Shown: positions 25,565-30,233 of the stretch, in pieces
Position numbering within the stretch: the stretch's first letter is position 1
Layout: the number at the start of each line of letters is the position of its first letter
Source: an uncultured Synergistales bacterium
GTDB taxonomy: Bacteria; Synergistota; Synergistia; Synergistales; Aminobacteriaceae
Reading direction: 5' to 3'
Length of the DNA: 33,138 nucleotides
Assembly (NCBI GenBank): GCA_905233215.1
Contig: CAJODC010000011.1
Span: 1 to 33,138 of the forward strand
Made by a program: the position numbers and the translations under genes
The notes under the pieces: model-generated
Seen by the model: the letters and a program-made list of their open reading frames with translations, nothing else
Told to the model about the DNA's origin: nothing
Databases searched by the model: none

Positions 25565-25640
25565 TAAAATTTGTCTTAATTGCAATCGGAATCGCTATCA
25601 CACTGAGCGAAAATGCGCGGTGCTAGTAATGATGAACTAG

Positions 25641-25680
25641 AAAGCCCCCACTTATTGAAGCGGGGGATAGTCCATTGAGG
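25641..25680 (+). mobile_element. Solo hairpin resembling an IS200/IS605 (tnpB-type) right end
   Basis: GAAAGCCCCCACTT at 25640-25653 pairs with AAGCGGGGG (25658-25666) around a 4-nt loop, with one mismatch. AAAGCCCCCAC...GTGGGGG-like hairpins with this exact left flank are characteristic of the right end/omega-RNA 3' region of IS605-family tnpB elements. No tnpB lies next to it, so it would be a remnant or a non-autonomous derivative. A tnpB gene begins 7 kb away at 32687. The outer boundaries are unknown. Confidence 0.5.
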
Positions 25681-25701
25681 GGGGTAAAACTATTCAACGA
25701 T

Positions 25702-25791
25702 CGAACAAGAACGAGGGGTAATTATCCTTCAGTGAAAAATCTTCTTGCAGGTGTAAGAATTTTCACGTTTAATGCGTTCTTCATTTGTTCG
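25702..25791. repeat. Nested imperfect inverted repeat
   Basis: The outer arms are CGAACAA-GAACG (25702-25713) and CGTTC-TTCA-TTTGTTCG (25775-25791). Inside them, GTGAAAAATCTT (25732-25743) and AAGAATTTTCAC (25755-25766) pair over 12 bp with one mismatch around an 11-nt loop. There is no T-run, so it is not a terminator. It could be a short palindromic mobile unit or a structured RNA. Confidence 0.6.
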
Positions 25792-25838
25792 TTACGTCAA
25801 ACATTATAGCCTTAATTTTGCCGGTGTCAATAGCAGTG

Positions 25839-25884: not shown

Positions 25885-26685
25885 TTACTCGGCCTTGTAA
25901 TCTTTCGTGAGAACGAGTGCAACCTGCTTTGCATCCTCGTAGGGCTCTGAGAAGTCGGTGAACATTTTGCGCTCCTCGTTGACGGTGATACCGGCGCAAA
26001 TCATGTCTACTTTCCCTGAGTTCACGGCCATGAAGAGCGAGTCGAACGGGTAAGCGATGATCACGAGTTCCTTGTCGAGTTTGCCAGCGATGAGAGCGCA
26101 CATCTCAATGTCAATCCCTGTGTAACCATCGCCGACCTTGATGTCATAGGGAGGGAAGCCCGACTCTGTTCCGAGATACAACTTTCCGCCTTTTGCGCCG
26201 ACATGAAGGTCAATGTCTTCGGGTTTTGCCACTGTAGGATCTTCTTTGTACTTCAGCATTATCGCTTCAAGTGAGCCGTCAGCTTTGATTTCAGCGAGGG
26301 CTTTGTTGACCTGATCCAATAATTCCTTGTTGCCCTGCTTGAAACCGATTGCGTACTGTTCGACAGTGAGAGCATCAGGAAGTATCTTGAGGGTATCAGG
26401 ATTATTCTTCACGAACTGAATCGCTGGTGCCTCGTCCATTATTGCTCCCTGAATCTTTCCGACCTTCAATGCCTGTACAACGTCTGTTGCTTTCTCGTAG
26501 GTAGTGAGCTGTTCTTTGGCTTTTTCACCGAGCATATTCTTTGCGATGCCTTCAGCGATTGTTCCGCGCTGAGTTCCGATCTTGTAGTTCACGAACTGTT
26601 CGGGCTTCGAGATGTTGAGGCCGTCAGCGAATGCGATTCCGGCTGTGAGAGCGAGAACTGCGAGGACTGCTGCAAATTTCTTCAT
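25885..26685 (-). CDS. Amino-acid-type solute-binding protein with permuted lobes
   Basis: This is an exported binding protein of the polar amino acid (SBP_bac_3) family, 266 residues with a signal peptide at 1-20 (cleavage near FA-DG). The domain order is unusual. Residues 27-147 match the part that normally comes second (YKIGTQRGTIAEGIAK, KIQGAIMDEAPAIQFVK, NKALAEIKADGSLEAI). Residues 168-260 match the canonical N-terminal part (LYLGTESGFPPYDI, GYTGIDIEMCALIAGKL, FDSLFMAVNSGKVDMICAGIT, EERKMFTDFSEPY). Ligand-binding residues of the family (R239 of EERK, T42 of RGT, D84) are kept. ATG 26685 is preceded by GAAGGAG. No permease or ATPase gene adjoins it. A clear promoter and terminator make it a single-gene unit. 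The ligand is unknown. Confidence 0.85.
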   Translation of the reverse strand: MKKFAAVLAVLALTAGIAFADGLNISKPEQFVNYKIGTQRGTIAEGIAKNMLGEKAKEQLTTYEKATDVVQALKVGKIQGAIMDEAPAIQFVKNNPDTLKILPDALTVEQYAIGFKQGNKELLDQVNKALAEIKADGSLEAIMLKYKEDPTVAKPEDIDLHVGAKGGKLYLGTESGFPPYDIKVGDGYTGIDIEMCALIAGKLDKELVIIAYPFDSLFMAVNSGKVDMICAGITVNEERKMFTDFSEPYEDAKQVALVLTKDYKAE

Positions 26686-26726
26686 GATAAAAACTCCTTC
26701 GTAATCAAAATTTTTCAACGGAACGT

Positions 26727-26755
26727 ATTATAACCGTCAGCATTAAATTTGTAAA
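26727..26755 (-). promoter_or_regulatory. Promoter of the solute-binding protein gene
   Basis: On the minus strand the -35 TTTACA (26755-26750) and the -10 TATAAT (26732-26727) are exactly 17 bp apart. The predicted start of transcription is near 26720, about 35 nt upstream of the ATG. Confidence 0.8.
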
Positions 26756-26846: not shown

Positions 26847-27005
26847 GTGATTAAGATTAAGAGGATTTTAATTGCGGCATTGGCTGTATTGCTGATGTCT
26901 GGAATGTGTTTCGGCGCAGCGCAGAATGATGTTTCGGGCATACCTGAAGACATTGTGCTTGCGGTGAACGCGGCAGAAACAGTTCGCTATGCTCTGCATA
27001 ACTGA
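26847..27005 (+). pseudogene. 5' fragment (signal peptide) of a frameshifted phosphoesterase
   Basis: A GTG at 26847 with GAGGTG 7 nt upstream opens a 52-codon frame. It begins MIKIKRILIAALAVLLMSGM, a clear signal peptide, and runs to TGA at 27003-27005. The downstream phosphoesterase domain is in the +1 frame and overlaps its end. If one A of the AAA at 26977-26979 is dropped, the frames join as ...NAAEQFAMLCITDVHH..., giving a normal exported enzyme of about 387 residues. A weak -10 (TAAAAT, 26809-26814) precedes it. This may be a real frameshift mutation or an assembly/sequencing error. Confidence 0.7.
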
Positions 27006-28011
27006 TGTTCACCATCAAGCAGAAAGGATAGAAACGTGTATCAAGTACCTTAACGGACTGGAAGCTGTAGACTGCGGCTGTTGTCTTGGTGACATAAACA
27101 ACAATTTCACGCAGAATATAGCATGGTATGCGGACGCATTGAGGAGCAGCACTAAGCCGTTTTACACGGTGAAAGGGAATCACGAGCTGGGTAAAGGCAG
27201 TTCCAGACAAAAAGGAGCGACAACTGAAGCCATATTCAACAAGTATATAAAGCCTGTGTCTAACAAAATCGGCATTCCCAATCTCAAGAAAGCATATTAC
27301 CGTGTCGACTGGGAACAGTACGGCGTAACGCTGATTGCTCTTGATGGCTACCTTCCTCCGCAGAAGACAGACAAAAAAGGTGAGTTTATCTACACAGGAG
27401 TGCTACCGTACTTCGGACAGGAACAAATCTCGTGGCTGATAAACGAACTCGGAAAAATTCCTTCAGGCAACAGTCTGGTCATAATGCTTCATGATGTAGA
27501 TTTCAGAACAGCTTCTATCAAGAACACATTTACTCAGGGCAAAATCGGCGCTGGATACAGCACAGACAAGAACCCTTATGGACAGGACGGAGTAGTTCTG
27601 GACATAATCGAAGCATGGAGGCTGGGCAGCCGTTTCGAGAAAACATATGTCCCAAAGGAAAGCACTGGCCTTGCTGAGACAATACGTGTGAAATGTGATT
27701 ACACATCACGCGGAAAAGGTGATTTTGTCTGCTGGATTGCCGGACATCGCCACAGAGATTTGGTATCAAGAAGCAAAAAATATCCTGCTCAACTTGTACT
27801 ACGCTTTGCTTGCGCGGTACACGGAGCATTGAGCAGATATTCAGACTTGGTGAGAACACCCAACACAAGGGCTGTTGACGTTATGACCGTTCTTGTGGTC
27901 GACAAAGTGAGCAGGTCAATCAAGCTGGTACGTATCGGCGCGGATATAACATACGATCTCAAAGAACGCAAAATGGCCAGCATTAAGTGGGATTATTCGC
28001 CGGAAAAGTAG
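26989..28011 (+). CDS. Metallophosphoesterase domain, separated from its signal peptide
   Basis: This is a calcineurin-like phosphoesterase whose catalytic motifs are all intact: ITDVHH (residues 4-9), LGDINNN (33-39), VKGNHELG (61-68), MLHDVDF and a terminal GHRHRD. The ATG at 26989 is only the first available start in this frame. It lies inside the first conserved strand and has no ribosome binding site, so this 340-residue frame is probably not translated on its own. Most likely it is the body of a gene beginning at 26847, broken by a frameshift at about 26977. The substrate is unknown. The 3' end overlaps cbiET on the opposite strand by 29 nt. Confidence 0.7.
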   Translation: MLCITDVHHQAERIETCIKYLNGLEAVDCGCCLGDINNNFTQNIAWYADALRSSTKPFYTVKGNHELGKGSSRQKGATTEAIFNKYIKPVSNKIGIPNLKKAYYRVDWEQYGVTLIALDGYLPPQKTDKKGEFIYTGVLPYFGQEQISWLINELGKIPSGNSLVIMLHDVDFRTASIKNTFTQGKIGAGYSTDKNPYGQDGVVLDIIEAWRLGSRFEKTYVPKESTGLAETIRVKCDYTSRGKGDFVCWIAGHRHRDLVSRSKKYPAQLVLRFACAVHGALSRYSDLVRTPNTRAVDVMTVLVVDKVSRSIKLVRIGADITYDLKERKMASIKWDYSPEK

Positions 28012-29176
28012 ATTTTTCCGCACTGAGAATCATTACGGGGTTGTTGGCTTTCATCATTGTCAGTGAAGGAGTCAGATTTTTTGTTGACACTGCCGAAATC
28101 TGAACAGCCTCGAATTTTTCCCATCTCTTCATGATTTCGTAGGCTTCCGTGAAAGTCTCAATCGTTACGCACGCAATGACTACCCGGACAGGAGGCTTCA
28201 ATCGTTGAAGTATTCCAGAAAGTTCACCGTCAGTCCCTCCGATGAAAACATGAGTCGGAACTGGCAGTGTGTCGAAAACTTCAAGGGCTCGTGCGTTGTG
28301 TATCGTTACGTTGTGAAGATGAAATTTCATGGCGTTCCTTGCGGTCAACTCTGCTGCCGTTGGATTCATCTCGACTGCGTGAACGTCAGCAAACGGAAAC
28401 TCATTGCCTGCACTCACGCTTATACTTCCTGACCCTGAGCCTATGTCCCAAAAAACAGAGTCGGCTCTAAGCCCAAGCCTTGACATTATTACGGCTCTGA
28501 CTGACTCGTTCGTCATCACGATGTTTCCCTCACGATGAAAATCTTTGTCCCTCAAGTGCAGTCGTTCAGGGACATAAGGATTCTCGTTCCTCACAAGCAC
28601 TATCGACAGAGACGGAAACTCAGTGTCAGCAAAATCACGAGGACTCCCCTGAAAAATTCTCTCATTCTCTCCGCCCAAGCATGAGCCTATCACTACTTCA
28701 ACGTCAAGGCATAACAGCTTTTCACACGCCCACGAAGGAGAAATTTTACTGTCGCAGAAAAGAATTGTCAGCCTGTTTCTTTCAACTGTCGTCAAAAATG
28801 TCGACTCCTTCAACGCCCGGCCATGTCCTGAAAGAATTTTCGCGTCCTGCCACGTCTCTTTTGCCTTAGCACAGATGACTTGAAGCGAGCTTATTCCGGG
28901 AATGACTGTGATTTTTTTACCGGGAAACTTTCTTTTCACAACCGTCAAGAGACTGAAGCACCCTGCATCACCTGAAACAAGAAGCAAAATTTTTCCCGAT
29001 TCATTTTCTAGGTCAGCAAAATTCTTTATGTCAACAATCTTTTTGCCGACTGGAATCAATTCCGCCAACCTCCTGTCAGCAAACACAACATCAGCATCAT
29101 CGAGAGCGTTCTTCACTTCCTGAGTCAGTGTCATCTCTCCCGTACCTGCTCCGGCAATAACAATTTCATTCGTCAT
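27983..29176 (-). CDS. cbiET: Precorrin-6Y C5,15-methyltransferase, CbiE-CbiT fusion
   Basis: This is a bifunctional cobalamin biosynthesis enzyme (CobL type) that methylates C5 and C15 and decarboxylates the ring acetate side chain. The N-terminal ~190 residues are CbiE, a tetrapyrrole methylase (IVIAGAGTGEMTLTQEV, LLVSGDAGCFSLL). The C-terminal ~190 residues are CbiT, a Rossmann methyltransferase (MTNESVRAVIMSRLGL, FWDIGSGSGSISVSAG, VFIGGTDGELSGIL). The length is 397 residues. I chose ATG 29176 with GGGAG 6 nt upstream over an in-frame start at 29209. It overlaps the end of cbiD by 11 nt, and its 3' end overlaps the convergent phosphoesterase gene by 29 nt. Confidence 0.92.
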   Translation of the reverse strand: MTNEIVIAGAGTGEMTLTQEVKNALDDADVVFADRRLAELIPVGKKIVDIKNFADLENESGKILLLVSGDAGCFSLLTVVKRKFPGKKITVIPGISSLQVICAKAKETWQDAKILSGHGRALKESTFLTTVERNRLTILFCDSKISPSWACEKLLCLDVEVVIGSCLGGENERIFQGSPRDFADTEFPSLSIVLVRNENPYVPERLHLRDKDFHREGNIVMTNESVRAVIMSRLGLRADSVFWDIGSGSGSISVSAGNEFPFADVHAVEMNPTAAELTARNAMKFHLHNVTIHNARALEVFDTLPVPTHVFIGGTDGELSGILQRLKPPVRVVIACVTIETFTEAYEIMKRWEKFEAVQISAVSTKNLTPSLTMMKANNPVMILSAEKSTFPANNPT

Positions 29177-30233
29177 GGTATGCTCCCAAAATTTTCCCTT
29201 CAGTGTCAAAAAAAATCACGTCAATTTTCACAGCTTTGTTGACTCTTTCGGCGCATCTTTTCCATGTCGCCTCCGCTATATTATCCCAAACTTTTTCGAG
29301 ATGTCCGCTCTTTATGATTTCTATTGCCTCGCTCGTTGTGTTGCTGCGGTAGACACTGGCTATGACGTTCTGACATGCTCCCGTCAAGGCTAGATGAGTG
29401 CAGAGTGCTTCAAGTCTTCCGTCAGATGCTTTGCTGTGTGTGATGAAACTTCCTGCCGTTACTTTGAGCAGTTTTCCGGGCTGACCGCAGATTATCACAC
29501 GAGTGAAACCGAATCTCTCCGCCTCGTCAAGAACATGGCCGGGATAATTCACACACTGAATCACGTTGCGCCCTTCAATGTGAAAATTCCTGCGAGCAAT
29601 TTTCTCCCCTGTTCCGGCAAAAGTAACAAAAATTTCATCGTAACCGAGTGAACGTATCATGCTCATCTCAAGCGTCAGTGAATCCAAAATCGCACGCTCA
29701 TTCATGGGCTTCACGACTCCTGTTGTGCCTAAGATCGAAATTCCTCCAACGATGCCTAGTCGGGGGTTGAATGTGCGTTTGGCGAGTTCTTCACCGTTTT
29801 TGACTGACACTGTTACTTTGAGCGAACGTTTCGGGATAACTTCACGGACTGCGAGAGCGATCATCTTTCTTGGAACGGGATTGATTGCTGGCTGGCCGAC
29901 TGGGATTTTCAGACCGGGAAGAGTAACAGTCCCTACACCTTCACCGGCGATGAATGCGATCTCGTTCTCACCGTCAGCAAGTTCGACAAGTGCTGAAATT
30001 TCCGCTCCGTCAGTAACATCGCTCTTATCATCTCCGGCATCTTTTATCACCGTAAAACGATTGCCTTCACGAAAAGTTGACAGTGAAAATTCACGGCCTT
30101 CGAGATTTTTGACGGTTACTGAGTTCGGAGCTTCGCCGGAAACGAGAAATATAGCTGATGCTTTAGCCGCCGCTGCCGCACAGGTGCCTGTTGTTATCCC
30201 AGTCCGTAAAGTATCGCGTTGACGATTGCACAA
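29166..30233 (-). CDS. cbiD: Cobalt-precorrin-5B (C1)-methyltransferase CbiD
   Basis: CbiD methylates C1 of the corrin ring precursor in the anaerobic cobalamin pathway. Family hallmarks are the N-terminal LRTGITTGTCAAAAAKAS, DAGDDKSDVTDGAEI, PRLGIVGGISILGTTGVVKP and VIICGQPGKLLKVTAG. The length is 355 residues. The start is uncertain: TTG 30233 is the first in-frame candidate before LRTG and lacks a good ribosome binding site, but it lies inside cbiC (40-nt overlap), so translational coupling is likely. The presence of cbiD indicates the oxygen-independent (early cobalt insertion) route, fitting an anaerobe. Confidence 0.94.
   Translation of the reverse strand: MCNRQRDTLRTGITTGTCAAAAAKASAIFLVSGEAPNSVTVKNLEGREFSLSTFREGNRFTVIKDAGDDKSDVTDGAEISALVELADGENEIAFIAGEGVGTVTLPGLKIPVGQPAINPVPRKMIALAVREVIPKRSLKVTVSVKNGEELAKRTFNPRLGIVGGISILGTTGVVKPMNERAILDSLTLEMSMIRSLGYDEIFVTFAGTGEKIARRNFHIEGRNVIQCVNYPGHVLDEAERFGFTRVIICGQPGKLLKVTAGSFITHSKASDGRLEALCTHLALTGACQNVIASVYRSNTTSEAIEIIKSGHLEKVWDNIAEATWKRCAERVNKAVKIDVIFFDTEGKILGAYHDE

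Follow-up and report, generated by a model that had tools for sequence, protein, structure and literature searches.

Reversed half order in an SBP_bac_3 binding protein of an uncultured Synergistales bacterium and permuted relatives in Synergistota and Clostridia

Natural circular permutation has been described among the binding proteins of ATP-binding cassette (ABC) importers. TpMglB-2 (Tp0684; 'Type Ic / Cluster Bc') of Treponema pallidum is a natural permutant of the type I sugar family with a solved structure; it still binds and closes, and it has many homologues in gut Gram-positive bacteria (PMC4990184). A structural comparison found another natural permutation within the type II binding proteins, among glycine betaine-binding proteins including 2b4l (OpuAC) and 1r9l (ProX) (PMC2395249). 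GlnPQ represents the standard tandem fusion, in which two substrate-binding domains (SBDs) are joined to the permease (SBD1-SBD2-permease) and the ATPase is encoded separately (PMC8025302). Here, a gene at positions 25885..26685 on the minus strand of a 33,138-nucleotide stretch (the window) of contig CAJODC010000011.1, from an uncultured Synergistales bacterium, was analysed. Its 266-residue product, a substrate-binding protein (SBP) of the SBP_bac_3 family, is very probably a native circular permutant, an exported amino-acid-type clamp serving a His/Gln-type ABC importer, and one member of permuted families that extend widely in Synergistota and Clostridia.

The preliminary description of this gene, made from its sequence alone, regarded a native permuted binding protein as notable, a claim tempered by the permutants described earlier from other SBP families (PMC4990184, PMC2395249). 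TpMglB-2 has the type I MglB fold with another cut point and an extra crossover, whereas the Pfam, NCBIfam and PDB matches of the window protein are type II amino-acid proteins. OpuAC and ProX belong to another sequence family, and no tandem arrays are described there. The window protein is a single soluble SBP and not a GlnP-type fusion. Its giant paralogues resemble GlnPQ in having tandem SBP_bac_3 domains fused to a permease, but GlnP carries two SBDs in canonical register, while the paralogues carry 1 to 12 in permuted register and are sometimes fused to the ATPase as well. GlnH, HisJ/LAO, ArtJ, ArgBP and AncQR are homologous to the window protein over both halves and share with it the signal peptide, the equivalents of Arg77 and Asp161 and the permease and ATPase partners. 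The window protein differs from them in its order (canonical second half, linker, canonical first half; half2-half1 hereafter), in termini lying in lobe 2 by the first hinge strand and in its 21-residue linker. Literature searches, covering open-access papers and little of the subscription journals, turned up neither permuted SBP_bac_3 proteins nor permuted tandem arrays.

The PF00497 profile (132 positions) runs collinearly from the N-terminal part of lobe 1 through lobe 2 to the C-terminal part of lobe 1, and the window protein reverses this order. Along the minus strand, 26454-26248 matched profile positions 97-129 (E 4e-7), and 26175-25900, further downstream, matched positions 3-94 (E 5e-21). 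The protein itself matched in two stretches with an overall E of 2.5e-29 and 102.1 bits (cut-off 26.4), and no single collinear match was obtained. Two reversed stretches were also given by the best-matching TIGR01096, GlnH, ArtJ and HisJ models, and phmmer against PDB chains aligned query residues 166-258 with residues 9-102 of AncQR (4zv1) and query residues 27-145 with residues 111-229. The preliminary description had placed the second half ahead of the first behind a signal peptide and had expected two partial PF00497 matches in reversed order; both points were borne out, and the first lobe is not also present N-terminally, as the signal peptide alone precedes half 2. Each segment is complete and present once, the total length is that of one domain, and the orthologues are under selection. 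Since profile searches list permuted proteins as ordinary SBP_bac_3 matches, the rearrangement is easy to miss.

Half boundaries were set with a hidden Markov model (HMM) of canonical Synergistota proteins, run on the open reading frame (ORF) 25885-26718, which includes an 11-residue TTG extension, and renumbered to the 266-residue protein. The coding sequence, from ATG at 26685 to the stop at 25885-25887, is supported by the profile matches, a ribosome-binding site and the ratio of nonsynonymous to synonymous substitution rates (dN/dS). Its parts all lie on the minus strand. The signal peptide, residues 1-20 (MKKFAAVLAVLALTAGIAFA; 26626..26685), was read from the sequence and is also found in aligned orthologues. 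The canonical second half, residues 26-147 (26245..26610), comprises lobe 2 and the C-terminal part of lobe 1, as delimited by PF00497 positions 97-129, canonical HMM positions 130-250 and the predicted elements E36-39 to H138-148. The canonical first half, residues 169-260 (25906..26181), comprises the N-terminal part of lobe 1 and the first hinge strand (250-259), on the basis of PF00497 positions 3-94, canonical HMM positions 32-124 and the predicted strand E250-259. Between them, a linker of 21 residues, 148-168 (26182..26244), joins the old C-terminus to the old N-terminus; the linker proposed earlier at 147-167 was thus right in existence and size and has been shifted by one residue. The ATG start was also upheld, with AAGGAG 8 nucleotides upstream (26694..26699, minus strand, read from the sequence) and a promoter-like TTTACA-17-TATAAT pair (11/12) about 40 nucleotides upstream (26727..26755, minus strand), the latter as a consensus match in a region with 3 such pairs against 1.7 expected by chance.

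Modelling of the window protein with AlphaFold2, using 49 natural permuted sequences as alignment, gave a mean predicted local distance difference test score (pLDDT) of 92.4 and a predicted template modelling score (pTM) of 0.83, with block means of 90-98 over the linker. Two 10-residue strands of the model, 107-116 and 250-259, probably resemble the two hinge strands, and the second of them is predicted as the last strand of the chain. By this reading of the model, made by inspection rather than superposition, the cut point would be the lobe-2 loop right after the first hinge strand. The new termini, previously assigned to the hinge crossover, would lie not exactly there but beside it, in that loop.

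In LAO/HisJ, Arg77 holds the alpha-carboxylate of the ligand and Asp161 its alpha-amino group. The equivalent residues of the window protein are Arg239 (25969..25971, minus strand) and Asp84 (26434..26436, minus strand). Both are conserved in relatives, in agreement with the earlier statement that ligand contacts are retained. Among 111 rows labelled Synergistota permuted (a label set by locus number, so that a few rows may be misfiled), Asp was present in 111/111 and Arg in 110/111, with both together in 110/111; Asp84 is also invariant in A4. Since these residues are kept, amino-acid binding by the window protein is plausible. The protein would be exported to the periplasm, where a chain beginning in lobe 2 and ending with the first hinge strand would fold as the usual two-lobed clamp; with the conserved Arg and Asp as contacts, this clamp would close around an amino-acid-like ligand and then pass it to a His/Gln-type ABC importer.

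The gene is conserved across species. Orthologues with 81-92% identity and the same half order, of the kind that the preliminary description had proposed to look for in Synergistota, were found in 14 of 18 further genomes from the genus (rumen Synergistota). Many further contigs with an orthologue were present in a genome collection, titled Synergistaceae, Synergistales or Fretibacterium and mostly metagenome-assembled genomes from the rumen or other ruminant gut. The dN/dS of the window gene against three orthologues was 0.05, and permuted forms sit on contigs of 221 to 892 kb. Permuted proteins also occur in other genera of the same family, and another family of the order has one fused to a permease (513 residues, L060); a relative in the same order carries a canonical SBP-permease fusion (L046). 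A trait limited to one gene or genus was ruled out by the same order within the genus, in other genera and in Clostridia. The scale thus exceeds what had been noticed from the window gene: the order is found also in paralogues, in giant arrays and in many Clostridia, and there is a second point of permutation.

Within the genus, permease fusions contain tandem arrays in which half 2 and half 1 strictly alternate, with half 2 first and half 1 last wherever the contig holds the ends. These fusions have 787, 1054, 1787, 1804 and up to 3249 residues, the largest (L048:3857-13606) consisting of 12 permuted SBDs and a His/Gln-type permease, and an ATPase gene follows in the cases read with an ABC-type next gene. 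The half2-half1 joints measure 12.9 +/- 0.9 residues (n=59) and share a conserved D-(E/D)-S...DY...P..NG motif, whereas the half1-half2 joints, rich in S, T, P and K, measure 9.8 +/- 6.7 residues (n=45, range 1 to 40; Levene test for variability, p 1e-7). AlphaFold2 of two consecutive array units gave a pLDDT of 91 and a pTM of 0.51, as for two independent bodies, and the sole internal segment with pLDDT <50 was the half1-half2 joint (residues 243-257). Since the half2-half1 joint is fixed and the half1-half2 joint variable and flexible in the model, the folded bead of the arrays is most likely the permuted unit. Canonical half1-half2 pairing within arrays is disfavoured by both joint lengths and model. 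Arg and Asp were both kept in 15/58 and 10/18 array units; because many units lack the pair, the ligands of array units may differ.

In a sample of 295 genomes from the order of Ruminococcus sp. UBA3855, more than twenty encode a full-length half2-half1 protein, typically a lipoprotein ahead of permease and ATPase genes; permuted permease fusions and two- and three-unit arrays are found in that order as well. For Clostridial permuted SBPs in general, the permease gene follows in 18/28 and the permease is fused in 5/28 more. Two single chains of 1154 and 1207 residues (L186, L187) contain two permuted SBDs, a permease and an ATPase, and would each be half of an importer in one polypeptide. Across 391 genomes of the class of Ruminococcus sp. 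UBA3855, 23 rows matched the permuted profile in full at E <= 5e-83, and some 30 others matched it from near position 100 onward. A dozen of the latter kind that were read begin with the last ~50 canonical residues, the break adjoining the other hinge strand. This second permutation (L193, G323:C27; L201-L211; L220) is common in Clostridia, in operons with permease and ATPase: the permease gene is next in 11/13 cases, with one more fused (L193) and one without flank. Arg and Asp are kept in 13/13, and contigs of 3-5 Mb carry such proteins. A PDB profile search returned no permuted single domain among its best 60 matches, in which only tandem proteins (GlnP 6h30, BvgS 4q0c) span the joint, and a plasmid search gave no match at 1e-20.

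The number of origins was studied on an unrooted tree of sequences rotated to canonical order, with 200 bootstrap trees. The best tree has six state changes for half2-half1 permutants and two for the second type, and one origin was found in 0/200 bootstrap trees. A single origin of all half2-half1 permutants was rejected by the approximately unbiased (AU) test (p = 0.024). The same test did not reject a single origin of the non-array half2-half1 permutants (p 0.138), of two of the clades (p 0.32) or of the second permutation (p 0.25), so that the six and two changes are not proven events. From the sequences, the first permutation can safely be said to have arisen at least twice, and the second once; gene conversion between halves may also be involved, and single-half trees were too short to resolve this history. 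Because the tree is unrooted, a reversion to canonical order could account for some of the changes. The canonical sequence placed closest to the window clade is a Lachnospiraceae lipoprotein SBP (L139:3338-4720), which stands on a long (AETEAEAAVV)n repeat stalk.

Regarding the transport partner, a permuted paralogue on contig 38, 55% identical to the window protein, is encoded first in an SBP-permease-ATPase operon, and a permease gene follows the SBP in 47/49 loci of paralogue family B. The window protein would serve this kind of importer as an alternative binding protein, its likely partner being the permease and ATPase encoded with the contig-38 paralogue. Some results weigh against this picture of a permuted transport SBP. 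No permease lies beside the window gene in any of the 52 family loci with enough flank (this count, like the 49 above, includes some genomes twice, via two collections). Foldseek gave the model a best TM score of 0.53, its best fold match being OpuAC (2b4m, 5nxx; 0.51-0.53); this tool keeps chain order and is unsuited to superposing the model on GlnH. Finally, nearly all the Synergistota genomes are metagenome-assembled. The orphan state in all 52 loci would fit a sensor or ligand buffer tied to cobalamin neighbours, as would the position of the window-gene orthologue directly downstream of cbiET (anaerobic cobalamin synthesis), on the same strand and within ~220 bp, in 21/34 loci (L063-L096). 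Such a role is unlikely, given that the window protein keeps the full amino-acid site, that the closely related paralogue B acts as a transport SBP and that gene order shared within a single genus may simply be inherited.

The remaining alternatives concern the protein itself. Misassembly, or a recent frame fusion, could have joined halves of neighbouring tandem SBP genes and given the same picture with no permuted protein in the cell, and the source genome is a draft in 80 contigs. The probability of this is negligible in view of the same order in many independent genomes and contigs, the low dN/dS and the length of contigs carrying one or the other permuted type; misassembly of adjacent genes, which the preliminary description had named as a refutation, and a pseudogene were ruled out on the orthologues and dN/dS. 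Under domain swapping, half 2 of one molecule would pair with half 1 of another, or, within an array, a half 1 would pair canonically with the half 2 after it. Arrays do offer such half1-half2 pairs, and a one-chain model leaves room for oligomers. Such swapping is nevertheless quite improbable: AlphaFold2 makes one confident body from one chain, single-unit proteins exist, and it is the half2-half1 joint that is short, conserved and confidently modelled, the half1-half2 joint being the variable one with pLDDT <50. A native permutant folding within its own chain is thus preferred.

Large families of naturally permuted SBP_bac_3 domains exist in Synergistota and Clostridia, where they take the form of single SBPs, permease fusions and tandem arrays. 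It seems somewhat more probable than otherwise that the family was permuted repeatedly in nature, beside both hinge strands, and that in permuted register it expanded into arrays of as many as 12 domains, fused to a permease and tethered via lobe 2 and not lobe 1. If so, permutation would be a path that evolution has actually taken to re-tether binding domains to transporters, and a 12-domain array would present 24 binding sites, provided that the permease works as a dimer. Such arrays go far beyond the two tandem domains in GlnPQ, and it may be asked how so many sites supply a single permease. Canonical and permuted relatives work with importers of one kind, in some cases within a single genome, which makes the role of the lobe-tether linkage in closing and docking testable. 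Engineers of permuted biosensors use SBP_bac_3 binding proteins as a standard scaffold; permutants from nature, which evolution has tuned and which are still coupled to transporters, would show which cut sites are tolerated and give ready templates.

Other features were observed in the window and at related loci. Downstream of the permuted gene, 25640-25830 (minus strand) contains a perfect TTGACA-16-TATAAT with a terminator-like stem ~140 nucleotides later and no ORF of >=90 residues wholly between; it is possibly a small RNA, and it had no Rfam match. A convergent metallophosphatase ORF (26989-28011) lies between cbiET (27983-29209) and the permuted gene (25885-26718) in the window, and was not found there in the other loci searched. 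Family C comprises 17 short permuted proteins in clusters, one beside a permease and an ATPase, in which the Arg/Asp pair is wholly lost. Divergent permuted SBP clusters at L011, L012, L015, L016 and L061 encode proteins of about 270-312 residues without the Arg and Asp pair. One permuted family B SBP (L034:1273-2229) carries an extra heptad-like segment, AVKEGVKEAVTDAVKGAVKEA, between the signal peptide and lobe 2.
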